From: Dactylococcopsis salina PCC 8305
Lineage (GTDB): Bacteria; Cyanobacteriota; Cyanobacteriia; Cyanobacteriales; Rubidibacteraceae
DNA: 64,000 nt
Assembly: GCF_000317615.1 (NCBI RefSeq)
Contig: NC_019780.1
Span: 1,633,840-1,697,839 of the forward strand
Direction: 5' to 3'
The notes under the pieces were generated by a model. It saw only the letters and a program-made list of their open reading frames with translations, was not told where the DNA came from and ran no database searches. Of this stretch, positions 3,654 through 51,717 are shown piece by piece; position 1 is the stretch's first letter, and each line of letters starts with the position of its first letter. Made by a program: the position numbers and the translations under genes.

Positions 3654-5036
3654 CTAGTCTAAATCAGGCATGGATAATACTGGCTCAGTTTCACGAGCGA
3701 TACCTTTTTCAAAACCAGCAGCAGCAGCACGAGCGCGACCCGCGTGCCATAAGTGACCAATTAAGAAGAAGAATCCTAAGATGAAGTGAGAACCAGCTAA
3801 CCATTGACGGAGGTTAACGTAGTTGAAGGAGTTGGGTTCAGTAATAATACCACCCACAGAGTTAATCGAACCGTTAGGAGCGTGAGTCATGTACTCAGCA
3901 GCGCGGCGTAATTGCCAAGGCTGAATATCATTTCTGATTTTGTCCACATCCAAACCATTCGGTCCACGTAACGGCTCTAACCAAGGTCCTCGGAAGTCCC
4001 AGAAACGCATGGTTTCACCACCGAGAATAATCTCACCAGTGGGAGAGCGCATTAAGTATTTACCTAAACCAGTGGGACCTTGAGAAGTGGCAATATTTGC
4101 CCCTAAACGTTGGTCACGAGCTAAGAATAAGAAGGCTTGCGCTTGTGATGCTTCTGCGTTGGTCGGACCATAAAACTCACTGGGATAAGCAGTATTATTG
4201 AACCATACCATGGAAGCAGCGACGAAGCCCATTAAAGAGAGCGCACCAAGGCTGTAGGAGAGATATGCTTCACCAGACCAGATGAACGCACGACGCACCC
4301 AACCAAAAGGCTTGGTGAGAATGTGCCAAACACCACCCGCGATGCAAATTAAGCCAACCCAGATGTGACCACCAATGATGTCTTCCATATTGTCAACACC
4401 AATGATCCAACCTTCTCCACCGAAGGGAGAGCTTAGAAGGTAGCCAAAAATCGCAGCGGGGTTAAGGGTGGGGTTATTAATGACACGAACATCACCACCA
4501 CCTGGCGCCCAAGTATCATAAACGCCGCCGAAGAACATTGCTTTGAACACCAGCAGTAACGCACCGATCCCTAAGATGATCAGGTGGAAACCAATAATGC
4601 TGGTCATTTTGTTCTTATCTTTCCAGTCATAACCGAAGAAAGCGGAGTATTCTTCTAAGGTTTCTGGACCACGTACGGCGTGATAAATTCCACCTAAACC
4701 GAGAACGGCGGAGGAAATCAAGTGCAATACGCCAACAACGAAATAAGGGAAAGTATCAATCACTTCTCCACCTGGACCGACACCAAAGCCAAGAGTTCCG
4801 AGGTGAGGGAGAAGGATTAAGCCCTGCTCATACATGGGCTTTTCGGGGACAAAGTGACCGACTTCAAAAAGAGTCATTGCACCTGCCCAGAACACAATCA
4901 AACCAGCGTGGGCGACGTGAGCGCCAAGTAATTTACCAGAAAGATTGATTAAACGAGCGTTACCAGACCACCAGGCGTAACCACTAGATTGTTGATCACG
5001 ACCGGAACCGACATAAGTATTAGAGAGCGTTACCAC
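3654..5036 (-). CDS. psbC: Photosystem II CP43 chlorophyll apoprotein
   Basis: CP43 is the inner antenna of photosystem II and contributes the CP43 Arg near the Mn cluster. The protein has six membrane helices, paired His chlorophyll ligands, the GGETMRFWD lumenal loop-E motif and a conserved C-terminus. I place the start at the GTG at 5036 (460 residues: [16 protein letters not shown]), not at the upstream ATG at 5102. The GTG is the known psbC start, it follows a strong Shine-Dalgarno (GGAGGT) inside psbD, and the extra 22 residues merely translate the end of psbD in another frame. The overlap with psbD is 17 bases, implying translational coupling. Confidence 0.97.
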
Positions 5037-6081
5037 GTGGCAGTACCTCCTCTGGGAATTCAAATTTCTGATGGGGTTGGTCATCCGGTGCCATCCATGC
5101 ACGGAGACCTTCGTTTAATAAGATGTTTTTAGTGTAGAAGGTTTCAAATTCAGGGTCTTCTGCTGCGCGAATTTCTTGAGACACAAAGTCATACGCACGC
5201 AGGTTTAAGCCTAAACCGACGACTCCCACTGAAGACATCCACAGTCCTGTTACTGGGACAAACAGCATGAAGAAGTGTAACCAACGTTTGTTGGAGAACG
5301 CAATTCCGAAAATCTGACTCCAGAAACGGTTTGCTGTCACCATGGAATAGGTTTCTTCGGCTTGAGTTGGCTCGAAGGCACGGAAGGTGTTGTTGCTGTC
5401 GCCACCTTCATCAAACAGGGTGTTTTCTACGGTCGCGCCGTGAATTGCACAGAGTAACGCACCGCCTAAAATTCCAGCAACTCCCATCATGTGGAAGGGG
5501 TTAAGCGTCCAGTTGTGGAAGCCTTGGAAAAATAGGATGAAACGGAAGATACCTGCAACTCCGAAACTGGGCGCGAAGAACCAGCTAGACTGTCCTAAAG
5601 GATAAAGTAAGAAGACGCTGACGAATACGGCGATCGGACCGGAAAATGCGATCGCGTTATAAGGGCGAATTCCGACTAAACGAGCAATTTCAAACTGACG
5701 AAGCATGAAGCCAATCAGTGCGAAAGCGCCGTGAAGGGCGACAAAGCTCCACAGTCCGCCAGTTTGACACCAGCGAACAAAGTCCCAGTTGGCTTCGGGT
5801 CCCCATAAGAATAATAAGGAGTGTCCGAAAGCATCTGCTGGAGTGGAAACCGCTACGGTCAGGAAGTTACAGCCTTCTAAGTAAGAGCTTGCTAAACCGT
5901 GAGTGTACCAGGAGGTAACAAAGGTGGTTCCAGTGAGCCATCCCCCGATCGCCATGTAGGCGCAAGGGAACAGCAATAAACCAGACCAGCCAATAAAGAC
6001 GAATCTGTCGCGCTTGAGCCAGTCATCGACCAGGTCGAAGACTCCTCTTTGTTGTTGAGCGCGTCCTACTGCAATTGTCAT
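5020..6081 (-). CDS. psbD: Photosystem II reaction centre protein D2
   Basis: D2 binds the special-pair chlorophylls, the pheophytin of the inactive branch, QA and the non-haem iron. The 353-residue sequence is a full-length, highly conserved D2. It begins [13 protein letters not shown] and contains the QA/iron region ([20 protein letters not shown]) and the C-terminal [14 protein letters not shown]. Five transmembrane helices are evident. It is the first gene of psbD-psbC, with an AGAGGA Shine-Dalgarno about 8 bases before the ATG. An ORF-less group II intron lies about 430 bases upstream on the same strand, so the intron may sit in or near its transcript leader. Confidence 0.98.
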
Positions 6082-6514
6082 GATTTCAAATCCTCTTGCT
6101 TAATAATTTGCTGCAAGAATGCTAAGTTTTACGTGCTTTTATCTCTTTAGGATAACTTAATCTCACTTAAAGTGTTAAGAAAGTTCCTGCTGAGATGGAA
6201 AAAGTTAATAATGATGACACTACCCTAGAAGTCGCCATTGTTGGGACTTACTTGGTGATAAAGGGAGAGTAGTTAACTTAACCTTTTTTAACAATAGCAC
6301 AAATTTTCCTCATTTTTCGAGTGGATTAGCAGAATTACTTTCAAAAATTGCTGTGATTGGTTCGATCGCAAAGAGGTTCTAGAATGGTCGGGTAGGTCGA
6401 AGCCTTATATCTAGCCTGTCACATCTCAAACCGCCTTGGAGTGTCCATCCGTTCGACTTATTGTGTTAGCCTTTCACCGAGACAGTTATCGGTTCAGATT
6501 TCCACTCTGTACGC
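6082..6514 (-). other. Upstream region of psbD
   Basis: No convincing gene is present in this 433-base stretch. The 120 bases nearest psbD are AT-rich and presumably hold its promoter and leader, although I cannot assign -35/-10 boxes with confidence. The distal ~110 bases, next to the intron 3' end, are GC-richer and fold-prone. They could still belong to the intron as a 3' extension or be exon sequence. A 25-codon ORF at 6195-6272 is not supported. Confidence 0.4.
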
Positions 6515-7441
6515 ATAAGAGGACTTTACCAGAAAAGACTTTCGGCTTCTTTCCCCCCTAAGAACCGAGCGTGCGACTTTCACCGCACTCGGCTCAAGCA
6601 AACCAGACCTTCCCTTACGTCTCTTAGTCACCTGGGGTCAAACCTCCAAATGGATAGGCTCAACTCCTCCCGCAGTTACGTTTGCATTGCTGCATCTAAC
6701 TTTTCCTGCGGTCTTAAGGCAACGTCACTTTTTGGTACTAAGTAACTGATTCACCCGTGTCCAAGTTAGCTCCCCTTTCAGGTGGGGCAAATTTTGAACC
6801 CCTATCCGTCGAGTTATACCCCGAAGGGCTTTCTTCTTGCTTTCGTGTTCCTGCTTGAACCAAGTCCAACTATCGGTTATCCGAAATCAGGTTATCAGAC
6901 AAGGAACTGCACGGAATCAGCAGACGGCATTCGCTTTTTGGACTGTCCCATACCCACTGAGGGATTGTGCCTTCCTTACGGTCAGCCTACTGGTGAGCCA
7001 GACCCCAATGGGCTTACCACGTTCCACATTTGAGAGATGCGCTCAACTTAGGTGGTGTTCTATCCGCCGAGGGTGCTATGGTGTACTAGAGACTCCAATG
7101 CTCGGGAAGACTCCTGACCGTTGCCCTTGACAACCCACATACTTGCTCTCGCTTTCGTGGCTAATCAACCCTGTTTCAATACTCGCTCGGCACATGACCT
7201 TAGCTTACAGGGACAATGGTAACGACGGCTCGTCGAACACTTCACGTTAGTTCACCATATTGAACTTTCCCTAGCACCTATTCCCTTTCTGGCGAGTCAT
7301 AATTAGGATATGGTTACATTTAACTCCCTGCTTTTCCACCCTGCCGTTACCAGCAACGCAGTTGGGAGCGGGAATAGCCTTGTACACTAGGCTAGAGTCT
7401 TTCTGAGGGACTCACTCTAGAAATGCGACATCGTGTCGCAC
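6515..7441 (-). mobile_element. ORF-less group II intron
   Basis: On the minus strand the element begins GTGCGAC at 7441, the group II 5' consensus. It ends with a canonical 34-nt domain V at 6595-6562 (GAGCCGAGTGCGGTGAAAGT, then CGCACGCTCGGTTC) and a domain VI-like hairpin. The 3' boundary near 6515 (...CTCTTAT) is approximate. At about 927 bases there is no reverse transcriptase, and open frames inside are short and unrelated to the RT family. Such introns are spliced and mobilised in trans by maturases of related introns. A full-length intron lies at 49001-51717, but its domain V differs, so it need not be the helper. The insertion point is between ycf4 and psbD, in sense with psbD. Confidence 0.8.
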
Positions 7442-7469
7442 GAACATGATCATTTTATAACAATCCTTT

Positions 7470-8036
7470 ATGAGTGCATCCACAACGGTTCAAGATAGCC
7501 AAGTTTTAACACAAACCATAATTGGCGCCCGTCGTCCTAGTAACTACTTTTGGGCGGTGATCGCAATGATTGGCGGCGTTGGTTTTTTGCTGGCTGGTCT
7601 ATCTAGCTACTTCCAAGTGAATTTACTCATTGTCAGTGATCCCACTGACTTACAATTTATTCCACAAGGAATCGCTTTAACCTTTTACGGGGTAGCCGGT
7701 TCTCTCGTTTCTACTTATCTTTGGTTAGTCGTCCTTTGGGATGTGGGCGGCGGTTATAACCAGTTTGATAAAAACACGAATCAGGTTAAAATTTTTCGTT
7801 GGGGTTATCCTGGCAAAAATCGCCGCATTGAATTGGTCAACAAGCTCAGTGATGTGGAGGCGGTAAAAGCAGAAATTAAAGAGGGCTTAAACCCCACGCG
7901 AGCGCTTTATTTACGAGTGAAAGGACGCAGAAACATTCCTCTGACTCGTGTTGGTGAACCCCTCCCCCTGAGTGAGTTGGAAAACCGAGGTGCAGAATTA
8001 GCTCGTTTTTTAGGTGTTCCCCTAGAAGGAATTTAA
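7470..8036 (+). CDS. ycf4: Photosystem I assembly protein Ycf4
   Basis: Ycf4 is a thylakoid scaffold for photosystem I assembly. The 188 residues have two N-terminal membrane helices (about 25-48 and 64-90), then a cytosolic domain with [10 protein letters not shown], the [12 protein letters not shown] block and the C-terminal [11 protein letters not shown], all typical of the family. The gene starts only 28 bases from the group II intron's 5' end and runs divergently from psbD. The intron therefore lies in the intergenic region the two genes share. A lipoprotein cyclophilin gene follows after 10 bases and is probably cotranscribed. Confidence 0.95.
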
Positions 8037-49000: not shown

Positions 49001-51717
49001 GTTACCTAAGCCAGAAGGTCACCCTCCTGACTCGGCTTCAGAACGGTACGTGAAACTTTCATTTCATACCGCTCCTCTTCAGACTACGCTATGTTAACAG
49101 CACTTCCCTACCTATCGACCTAAGAAGCTAGAATGAATTCCACTTCTGCCTTTATTCTGACTTGAACCTTTCTTCTGATTCTTGCCTTTTTGGCTCTGTC
49201 GTTTTAGGTCTTCAGCAGTTTTCTTGTGGTGACAATGGCGATGGAGTAACTGTAAGTTCTTGTAGGCATCTTCACCCCCTTCAGCTTTAGGGGTAATGTG
49301 GTCAACTTCTTCTACATCTCCATCTTTGAAATATAGTCCACAACGGGTACATTTGCCTTTCTGACGCTTCATCAGAGTAGCTACCCGTTTTTTCGTACCA
49401 GGATATCCACCCCGGCGTTCACTCCAGTATCGCCAGTCTCCATCGTATGGAGACCTTGAACCCTCGATTTTAATATGTCTTCCAATTGGTGTCCATGCGT
49501 GTTTCCACAGTTCGTGCGTACCCGCATCAGGAGTATTTGCTTCCGAGGAGGCTGTTGAAAAGACCCATTTATCCTCTCTTCTTTCTCCCTCTAAGTTTTC
49601 CCCCTTTGTCCAATGAAAGTATTTTTCTAAACACCATCTGAAGGTTTTATTCGGATGACGACGTTTCACCCAACGACGTAATTTATTGAAGACCATGTGA
49701 TCCACTTTAACAAATGTCTCCTTTGAGCAGACTGTCTTATGATAGTTGCACCAACCCTTGATAATAGGATTAAGTTTATCAATGATTACCTCTTGGGATT
49801 TACCTCTCATTGAATCCAACACTTCAACAATCTTTTCATAATGAGTTTTAATACTTTTGTCGCTAGGTTTGATTATTGTCTTGAATCCAAGTAATTTGCC
49901 ATTTGTATTTTTTCCTGAATGGTTTTTCCCGATTTCATGCTGGCGGATGTTCCACCCTAAGAAATCAAAACCAGCTTTCTCTTCTTCGGAATCATACAAT
50001 GTATGGCAAATTCTCGTCTTGCTCTCACTTATTTTTAAGCCTAAATCATGTAACCAATGCTCAATCAGCGTTTTCGCCTGTTGGACGATGGATTTATCCT
50101 TGTGGAGAACAACGAAGTCATCTGCATACCGGATAAGAGATATCGAGCTTCGATTAGCCCTTTTCGCCCCCTTCCAAGTTTCAGCCCATTGTTTTATGTA
50201 CTCTTCAAGTCCATGCAGAGCAATGTTTGCCAATAGAGGACTTATCACCCCTCCTTGTGGTGTTCCCTCATTTGTTGGCATCCAATCACTTTTATCCAAG
50301 ACTCCCGATTTTAACCAAGCTCGAATTTGTCGAGCTATAGTCGGGGTTGTATTTAATTTTTTCAAGAGAGCATCGTGATTTATACGGTCAAAACATTTAG
50401 AGATATCTGCATCTAAAGCCCATTTGGGTTTTTGATTGATAGCCACATATATTGCTCCTCCCGCATCATGACAAGAGCGTCCTGGTCTAAATCCGTACGA
50501 ATTAGGTTCAAATTTTGCTTCCCATTCCGGCTCCATAGCTAGTTTAAGAAGAGCCTGCCTCGCACGGTCTTCCATTACTGGAATACCCAAGCCGCGTTTT
50601 TCTTTACGTCCTGGTTTTGGAATCCAGACCCGTCTTAAGGATTTACCTTTCCCTGTAAGGGTTAGATTTTCAGCAAGGTTCAACCGTTCTTCAGGACTTA
50701 GGCTTTTTACACCGTCTATCCCCGCCGTGTTTTTACCCTGGTTATCCTGCGAAATGCGCCGTACTGCAAGAAGTCTGGCACACCAAGACCGCACCAATAA
50801 TCTCTGGAGTTTGTGAACTTTAGCCACGTCACCACCTTGAGAAGCTCGAAAAATTCGTTTTTGAAGTTTAAACACATCAATTTCAACTCTTTTCCAGTCC
50901 ACTTCACTCCACTCCGTTTTCTCCATAAGGAGCAACCCGAAACTTAACCAAAATGGAAAGTTAAGAAAAGTCTTAATCTCTGCATTACTTTCATACTTTA
51001 ATAATAAGTTCATGATTCCCTCTACTCAATTTCATTTTTCTTCGTAATCGAAAGTGGATACGTCAGCATATCCTCCCTATTACAGAAGGCGTTCGCTTCT
51101 TATCCAATCCTGCCCTCGCTCAACCCGACAAATGAGTCAGAGATTGCGTCCCGACAGACTACTTGGAAATCGACCTTCCCAAGAGTATGAACGAGGGTTA
51201 CTTCGTTTCTAATATCCATTGATTGAGACCTTAGCCCCCTACTATCCACCGAGTAAATTTGGGAATGTGATATAAACTATCTCAGATTTATATCCTCTTA
51301 CTTTGAACTTATTTCGTTCCCTGCTCAATAGCCTTTCCGCAGGATTGTACTAACGATGGTTCAAACGTAGGTTCGTTGACTAGGCATAGCCTCTTGCTAG
51401 GGAATTTACCAGTTTAGGCTACCAGCAGTGATCCCATTTAACCCTGCTTTATCCTCAAGTAGTCAACTCTGTAGATAAGGGTTATGCTTTTCTCTCACAT
51501 CCTGAGAGAGATGGACTTAATGTTCGGTTTTCCCTACATCAATTGTTCGGTACTTCCCACCCTCTTTTTCTTCATATTTCGTAATACTCAGGGGCATTTC
51601 ACCATCATGGATATTAAATTATCAAGGTTCGGTACCCCGTAGGGTTCTTTACCAAGCTCTGGATTATGCGCCAGTCCGTGAGGGACTTATAACGTTTTCA
51701 CCAGAAACGAATCGCAC
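49001..51717 (-). mobile_element. Full-length group II intron with maturase
   Basis: The minus-strand 5' end GTGCGAT lies at 51717. About 700 bases of structured RNA (domains I-III, 51717 to ~51030) precede the open reading frame in domain IV. Domain V is the canonical 34-nt hairpin at 49074-49041 (GAGCGGTATGAAATGAAAGT, then TTCACGTACCGTTC). Domain VI and the 3' end (...TTAGGTAAC) are at about 49001. The 3' exon is the short leader of mtnP. The RT, maturase and HNH endonuclease regions are all present, so the intron may still be mobile. Confidence 0.9.
49112..50926 (-). CDS. ltrA: Group II intron reverse transcriptase/maturase with HNH endonuclease
   Basis: The 604-residue product, from ATG 50926 (MEKTEWSEVDWKRVEIDVFK), has RT blocks NTAGIDGVKSL, RRVWIPKPGRKEKRGLGIPV and the catalytic YADD (about 267-270). 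Domain X (maturase) follows, ending near GEN, and a C-terminal HNH zinc endonuclease (CTRCGLYFKDGDVEEVDHIT, then LLHRHCHHKKT). An upstream in-frame extension to 51013 is hydrophobic and unlike the family start. All catalytic residues appear intact, so the protein is probably active in splicing and target-primed reverse transcription. Confidence 0.92.
   Translation of the reverse strand: MEKTEWSEVDWKRVEIDVFKLQKRIFRASQGGDVAKVHKLQRLLVRSWCARLLAVRRISQDNQGKNTAGIDGVKSLSPEERLNLAENLTLTGKGKSLRRVWIPKPGRKEKRGLGIPVMEDRARQALLKLAMEPEWEAKFEPNSYGFRPGRSCHDAGGAIYVAINQKPKWALDADISKCFDRINHDALLKKLNTTPTIARQIRAWLKSGVLDKSDWMPTNEGTPQGGVISPLLANIALHGLEEYIKQWAETWKGAKRANRSSISLIRYADDFVVLHKDKSIVQQAKTLIEHWLHDLGLKISESKTRICHTLYDSEEEKAGFDFLGWNIRQHEIGKNHSGKNTNGKLLGFKTIIKPSDKSIKTHYEKIVEVLDSMRGKSQEVIIDKLNPIIKGWCNYHKTVCSKETFVKVDHMVFNKLRRWVKRRHPNKTFRWCLEKYFHWTKGENLEGERREDKWVFSTASSEANTPDAGTHELWKHAWTPIGRHIKIEGSRSPYDGDWRYWSERRGGYPGTKKRVATLMKRQKGKCTRCGLYFKDGDVEEVDHITPKAEGGEDAYKNLQLLHRHCHHKKTAEDLKRQSQKGKNQKKGSSQNKGRSGIHSSFLGR

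Follow-up and report, generated by a model that had tools for sequence, protein, structure and literature searches.

The window, that is, the whole stretch of 64,000 nucleotides of the Dactylococcopsis salina PCC 8305 genome that was analysed, contains a group II intron RNA of 1055 nt without an ORF, located between two genes which we take to be ycf4 and psbD.

7470..8036, plus strand: ycf4, ORF, divergent
6387..7441, minus strand: complete ORF-less group II intron, 5' GTGCGAC ... CCTACCCGAC 3', delimited by a same-end copy and by RF00029 (6387-6597)
6674..6706, minus strand: domain IV (DIV) hairpin, whose arms pair in the window, 2022-kb and RT-bearing copies despite differing sequence (by eye)
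6562..6595, minus strand: domain V (DV; RF00029, 50.5 bits, gathering threshold 40)
6387..6559, minus strand: enlarged domain VI (DVI), 173 nt versus 39 nt in sibling copies
6428..6522, minus strand: folded RNA module within the loop of DVI, akin to the segment that lies immediately 3' of HEARO RNAs in cyanobacteria
5020..6081, minus strand: psbD (D2 protein), ORF, in sense with the intron

Ends, domains and class of the intron

The initial annotation had described an ORF-less group II intron RNA on the minus strand between ycf4 and psbD, in sense with psbD, with GTGCGAC at 7441, a domain V at 6562-6595 and no reverse transcriptase inside, all of which is borne out, the intron lying 28 bp from the divergent ycf4. 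Its 3' end, however, had been wrongly placed at 6515. The alignment with a 91%-identical copy at 409 kb in the same genome (G000:C1:408988-410070) extends from 7441 to exactly 6387 and no further, the two elements both terminating in CCTACCCGAC, and the RF00029 DV-DVI model threads the full 6387-6597 segment (58.2 bits, permissive cmscan). With the end at 6387, the distance from the intron to the start of psbD is 305 bp, and not about 430 bases as first estimated. In the proposed comparison with class models, the DV-DVI model fitted 6387-6597; domains I-IV reached 25.3 bits with RF02012, under the gathering threshold of 34 (permissive cmscan), but could be aligned at 86% over 716 nt with an RT-bearing member of the family. 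The termini fit the 5' GUGYG / 3' AY rule (GTGCG at 7441, AC at 6387), and the fold and the cmscan alignment both place the bulged A of DVI seven nt from the 3' end, with the DVI loop enlarged. Since ten matches to the intron, itself included, are present in its own genome, it is not a chance resemblance.

The 128 nt missing from the extent first reported are part of the enlarged DVI, in which an insert takes the place of the apical loop but leaves basal stem, bulged A and 3' AC intact. About 93 nt of this insert match, at 76%, sequence located just 3' of the HEARO RNA in other cyanobacteria. The fold derived from seven sequences is branched, with 27 pairs, four of them showing double changes, at a covariation term near zero. 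A covariance model of the module found matches in 49 of 243 genomes, and HEARO lay directly 5' of the module in 17 of the 18 loci scanned out of 20 (L231-L250). The 98-nt module occurs in many copies in some cyanobacterial genomes, and no Rfam family matched it. D. salina itself has 15 HEARO (RF02033) matches, 11 of them above the cut-off; three of the 15 loci were tested for the module and gave only short, chance-level matches. Two other identities for the insert were rejected: a HEARO RNA proper, because the RF02033 core is absent from the intron (nothing found at E values of up to 5), and a coding remnant, because reading frames differ between homologues (by eye). We read the insert as a presumptive fragment of a HEARO-type element, resembling the module just 3' of the HEARO / IscB omega RNA (RF02033) of cyanobacteria but without the HEARO core, that was captured in DVI and has since been carried by the intron. 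The insert shows that a branch-point domain can accommodate structured RNA with kinship to a mobile element of another kind. The extra RNA carried along by the mobile introns of the Bacillus cereus group is similar in belonging to the 3' part, but consists of 53-70 additional nt at the 3' end itself (PMC3261151). A 3'-extension (domain VII) intron was rejected for our element, whose insert sits inside the DVI loop and leaves the 3' end unshifted. A copy from the same genus (L082) has a DVI enlarged differently (103 nt match versus 77).

Although the ORF is gone, the DIV hairpin has been retained, and it is likely, judging from the sequence, to be the DIVa element bound by the intron-encoded protein (IEP). 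Its letters change between copies while the pairing stays, as would be expected if an IEP still binds the ORF-less RNAs. The element appears to be an ORF-less group IIB-type retrointron of the EcI5/TeI4-like (CL1-type) clade, a placement made by the best solved relative of its family's IEP. Membership in group IIC, whose introns insert after terminators, was considered and rejected: both have targets tied to a transcription signal, but here this signal is a promoter-like -10 box (TATAAT), the IEP carries an HNH domain and an IBS2 candidate pairs at 5/6; a scan of 39 nt of 5' exon gave no terminator-like site.

Copies, likely helper protein and exon pairing

The genome of D. salina (3.78 Mb, one contig) contains 35 DV matches, belonging by eye to at least four families. 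Besides the window intron itself, the ten matches to it include the copy at 409 kb, three copies of 930 nt (771, 1205 and 2022 kb) that are identical letter for letter, a 197-nt 5' intron fragment at 2608 kb, two matches from an RT-bearing intron and two DV-only matches; there are, in other words, four further ORF-less copies (409, 771, 1205 and 2022 kb). IEP remnants were sought in three ORF-less copies and nothing convincing was found. The RT-bearing intron of the same family (G000:C1:3278759-3281329, hereafter the 3.28-Mb sibling) is 2571 nt long; its identity to the window intron is 86% across the initial 716 nt and 92% in a 53-nt segment around DV. It encodes a 570-aa RT/maturase/HNH protein, P0001, with RVT_N, RVT_1, GIIM and HNH domains, which scores 334.9 bits against TIGR04416 (cut-off 300) and has as its best solved relative the maturase reverse transcriptase 6me0 (1e-99), presumably T.el4h. 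One relative of P0001 is 70% identical (L051, a cyanobacterial MAG), and the other 29 of 30 loci are at most 45% identical over the best segment.

That a helper must lie elsewhere had been anticipated correctly. The candidate put forward, the intron at 49001, was discarded since it belongs to another family, with a different DV and 5' end, and from sequence relatedness the 3.28-Mb sibling protein is the likely helper. Its activity is not certain, given that the DV loop of its intron reads AAAA versus GAAA in the siblings (by eye) and that its RT motif is FADD, YADD being the usual form. No empty site of the RT copy was found in 8 relatives, and in a strict pattern search across the phylum only the own genome matched out of 386, most of them distant. 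Elsewhere in the genome, introns of different families stand in tandem at two places (G000:C1:1022956-1028401 and 1549416-1554859; L193, L194), and L188 seems to be an intron into which a second one has inserted. The arrangement inferred here recalls that of Thermosynechococcus elongatus, whose ORF-less TeI3 introns are driven by TeI4 IEPs: there, too, copies without an ORF outnumber the RT-bearing one and move in trans by means of a sibling IEP (PMC2882425). The IEPs there are likewise relatives of the solved 6me0 protein; the enlarged DVI of the window intron sets it apart.

The pairing with the exon involves the following segments:

7454..7459, minus strand: TATAAA, target motif of the family, at -18..-13
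7442..7447, minus strand: IBS1 ATGTTC (5' exon), partner of EBS1
7215..7220, minus strand: EBS2 candidate, 5/6 with the -13..-8 segment
7098..7103, minus strand: EBS1 GAGCAT, loop A, 6/6 with IBS1, one G-U

The six-base IBS1 varies between copies, and EBS1 changes along with it. Within nt 251-460, the EBS1 sequences TTCCAA (2022, 1205 and 771 kb), TTTACA (409 kb) and GTTTTC (RT copy) are each the sole 6/6 partner of the IBS1 of their own copy, all Watson-Crick. With G-U pairs permitted, the window intron has three 6/6 partners in that region. One of these, GAGCAT, sits at the homologous place, and its assignment as EBS1 is based on this homology to the 2022-kb type, two other 6-mers pairing 6/6 as well. 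Unexpectedly, EBS1 occupies hairpin A in the window intron and the 2022-kb type and the adjacent hairpin B in the 409-kb copy and the RT copy. The 409-kb, 2022-kb and RT introns have both hairpins, as do two introns of genome G012 (L127 by eye), which match the exon via loop A; the window copy lacks hairpin B through a 29-nt deletion. The two hairpins may represent a dual EBS1 design, a suggestion based on the sequences of five introns, and it is even conceivable that the two EBS1 loops are interchangeable in this clade. Two adjacent EBS1-type hairpins are seen around intron nt 325-395 in L041, L042, L045, L215 and L216, where copies differ in the hairpin that matches the exon.

A TATAAT motif upstream of the insertion sites

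The 5' flanks of homologous introns were collected from two sources: 291 genomes of the order, of which 15 had matches at 19 places (no more than two being scored in any genome), and 50 genomes picked for earlier matches or kinship and searched with a pattern, of which 11 had matches at 22 places. Once identical flanks had been merged and a place at the end of a contig (L125) discarded, there were 27 sites in 15 genomes, seven of them in the own genome; these are separate sites but a non-random sample. In five of the 27 the 5' pattern is not matched exactly, and these were positioned manually. For L051 the first of two possible 5' ends was used, which gives 6/6 TATAAT and is backed by a 6/6 EBS1-IBS1 pairing; the second end would give 3/6.

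At a fixed offset of -18, TATAAT is matched in at least 4/6 positions at 19 of the 27 sites, in at least 5/6 at 15 and perfectly at nine, while at other offsets from -40 to -6 (-19 and -18 excluded) at most 10 sites reach 4/6 and two reach 5/6. With the better of offsets -19 and -18, the numbers rise to 26 sites with at least 4/6, 21 with at least 5/6 and 11 with 6/6; 5000 shuffles of the flanks gave a mean of 5.1 sites and never reached 26. Among 15 control introns from three other families of the own genome, a single one reached 4/6 (4/15 at offset -17). The aligned base counts, out of 27, are T24 A24 T20 A24 A22 T24 and are flattered by taking the better of two offsets. The one site without TATAAT (L127/L216) is that of an RT-bearing sibling between dnaK-like and dnaJ-like genes. 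Among the distant IEP relatives (at most 45% identity), 16 of the 17 loci scanned out of 29 had no GTGYG candidate with at least 4/6 TATAAT at -19/-18, the 5' ends being guesses and two of the 16 having no candidate end. L066, from a Limnochordia MAG, has two candidate 5' ends, with 4/6 and 5/6 TATAAT. In three other distant relatives (L055, L061 and L068) the candidate start follows ATGTA, which we take to look like a groEL stop codon.

How could the motif be recognized? A third RNA pairing was rejected, several places in the intron pairing with TATAAT about equally well with none standing out. The IEP of EcI5 (group IIB, CL1) reads C-18, C-17, A-15, A-14 and T+5, TeI4h selects A-15 and C-16, and TeI3c/4c selects A-15 and A-14 (PMC2882425). 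The register of the EcI5 type is that of TATAAT here (-18..-13, in the distal 5' exon just upstream of IBS2), which makes reading of the motif by the IEP of the clade the simplest mechanism, and we infer that this protein probably does so. The bases read by EcI5 are nevertheless different (C-18 C-17 A-15 A-14; PMC2882425), and for the TeI3/TeI4 introns the same source gives at most one or two bases, or A/T, upstream of IBS2, unlike the six-base TATAAT. Among the titles and abstract openings searched, a corpus covering few subscription journals, there was no report of group II introns at -10 boxes or with HEARO-linked RNA.

We consider it probable that the window intron, having lost the gene for its own reverse transcriptase, depends on the 3.28-Mb sibling protein for splicing and movement in trans, with targeting in two steps. 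The protein of the RNP would read TATAAT at -18..-13 on the DNA; EBS2 and EBS1 would then pair to the 12-13 bases that follow, and the RNA would enter by reverse splicing. The 6/6 EBS1-IBS1 pairing makes both splicing and movement in trans plausible. With its 173-nt DVI, the missing 29-nt hairpin B of domain I and no RT of its own, the element could instead be taken for a dead relic. This is unlikely in our view, as two copies with the same enlarged DVI occupy different sites, and DV, the bulged-A stem and the 6/6 match of EBS1 to the present exon are all intact.

Promoter likeness of the target sites and psbD

TATAAT is also the -10 hexamer, the core of bacterial promoters, so the intron would tend toward intergenic, promoter-like DNA. 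Should the box act as a promoter, transcripts would begin some 6 nt before the intron, with a short 5' exon made up of just IBS1. We advance, with somewhat less than even confidence, the proposal that the clade homes to promoters: its IEP would read the -10 hexamer at -18..-13 and place a copy about 6 nt behind a transcription start, the captured promoter then driving its expression and the six-nt exon being equal to IBS1. This would constitute a fourth target class beside the three specificities that a 2015 review (PMC4424553) lists for bacterial group II introns, namely homing sites, terminators and attC. We are similarly tentative about the boxes being used as promoters by the cells. Alternatively, and to our minds with an even chance of being right, TATAAT may be an IEP recognition sequence only, its -10 likeness coincidental and reflecting an AT-rich, easily melted target, so that the sites would be promoters no more often than intergenic DNA in general. 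Consistent with that, there is no -35 hexamer enrichment at the 27 sites (p 0.56), TGn precedes the box in only five of them, and all six positions of TATAAT are about equally conserved, unlike the -10 box, in which positions 1, 2 and 6 dominate. A preference of TeI4c for A/T at -13..-16 has been taken as a melting aid (PMC2882425). It is, however, exact TATAAT and not any A/T that is found, and none of the 27 sites has a sense open frame of at least 100 aa running into it, as against 3/15 controls (4/27 versus 2/15 for the opposite strand). Likewise, the empty psbD site in a related genome (G082) reads TTGAAC-16-TATAAT, a reasonable promoter (by eye). The next downstream gene is in sense in 12 cases and antisense in four among the 16 of 19 loci that were counted (leaving out L218, with no 5' end, L214, off the contig, and the ambiguous L213). 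The excess is weak, the more so as the 12 include three doubtful cases, in which the gene is an IS-like ORF, it is a fragment of a 5' intron part, or the site is the one without TATAAT. A 2022 survey asks why CL-type introns expand in cyanobacteria at sites seemingly unrelated to terminators (PMC8919778). Landing behind TATAAT suggests a testable answer, that is, gene-poor, transcribed DNA, and such a clade could offer a promoter-aimed targetron.

The initial annotation had further suggested that the intron could affect psbD expression through splicing. An alignment of the psbD upstream region from six genomes (the own and five relatives, from three genera) bears on this:

6277..6314, minus strand: conserved block between intron and psbD, 23/38 columns invariant in the six genomes versus 65/305 for the whole stretch
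6149..6178, minus strand: promoter-like TTAACA-18-TATCCT, kept in 4/6 genomes

The idea of a spliced leader stands as a possibility in view of the TATAAA box, the IBS1 and the empty site of G082, and the insertion adjoins TATTCTAGAACC-like sequence common to that site. The stronger version, in which the main psbD transcript comes from the upstream TATAAA box and expression needs splicing, could draw on the sense orientation, the box at -18, the cognate IBS1 and the promoter-like empty site, yet we regard it as very unlikely. The conserved block and the promoter-like element both lie between the intron and psbD, the upstream flank to ycf4 is only 28 bp long, and a second psbD, differing by one residue, is present at 372594-373652. 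Given these downstream blocks and the second gene, psbD need not depend on splicing, and control of it by the intron is, from what the sequence indicates, doubtful; for the same reason, namely that the conserved control blocks are downstream of the intron, the insertion would have replaced nothing essential. It is conservation that carries this argument and not the scan for consensus promoters, which gave one site versus 1.4 in shuffles. Further along the window, at 4439-4625 on the plus strand and opposite psbC, the Rfam model of IsrR (antisense to isiA) matches at 173.9 bits, which probably reflects isiA/psbC coding homology and not a true IsrR.
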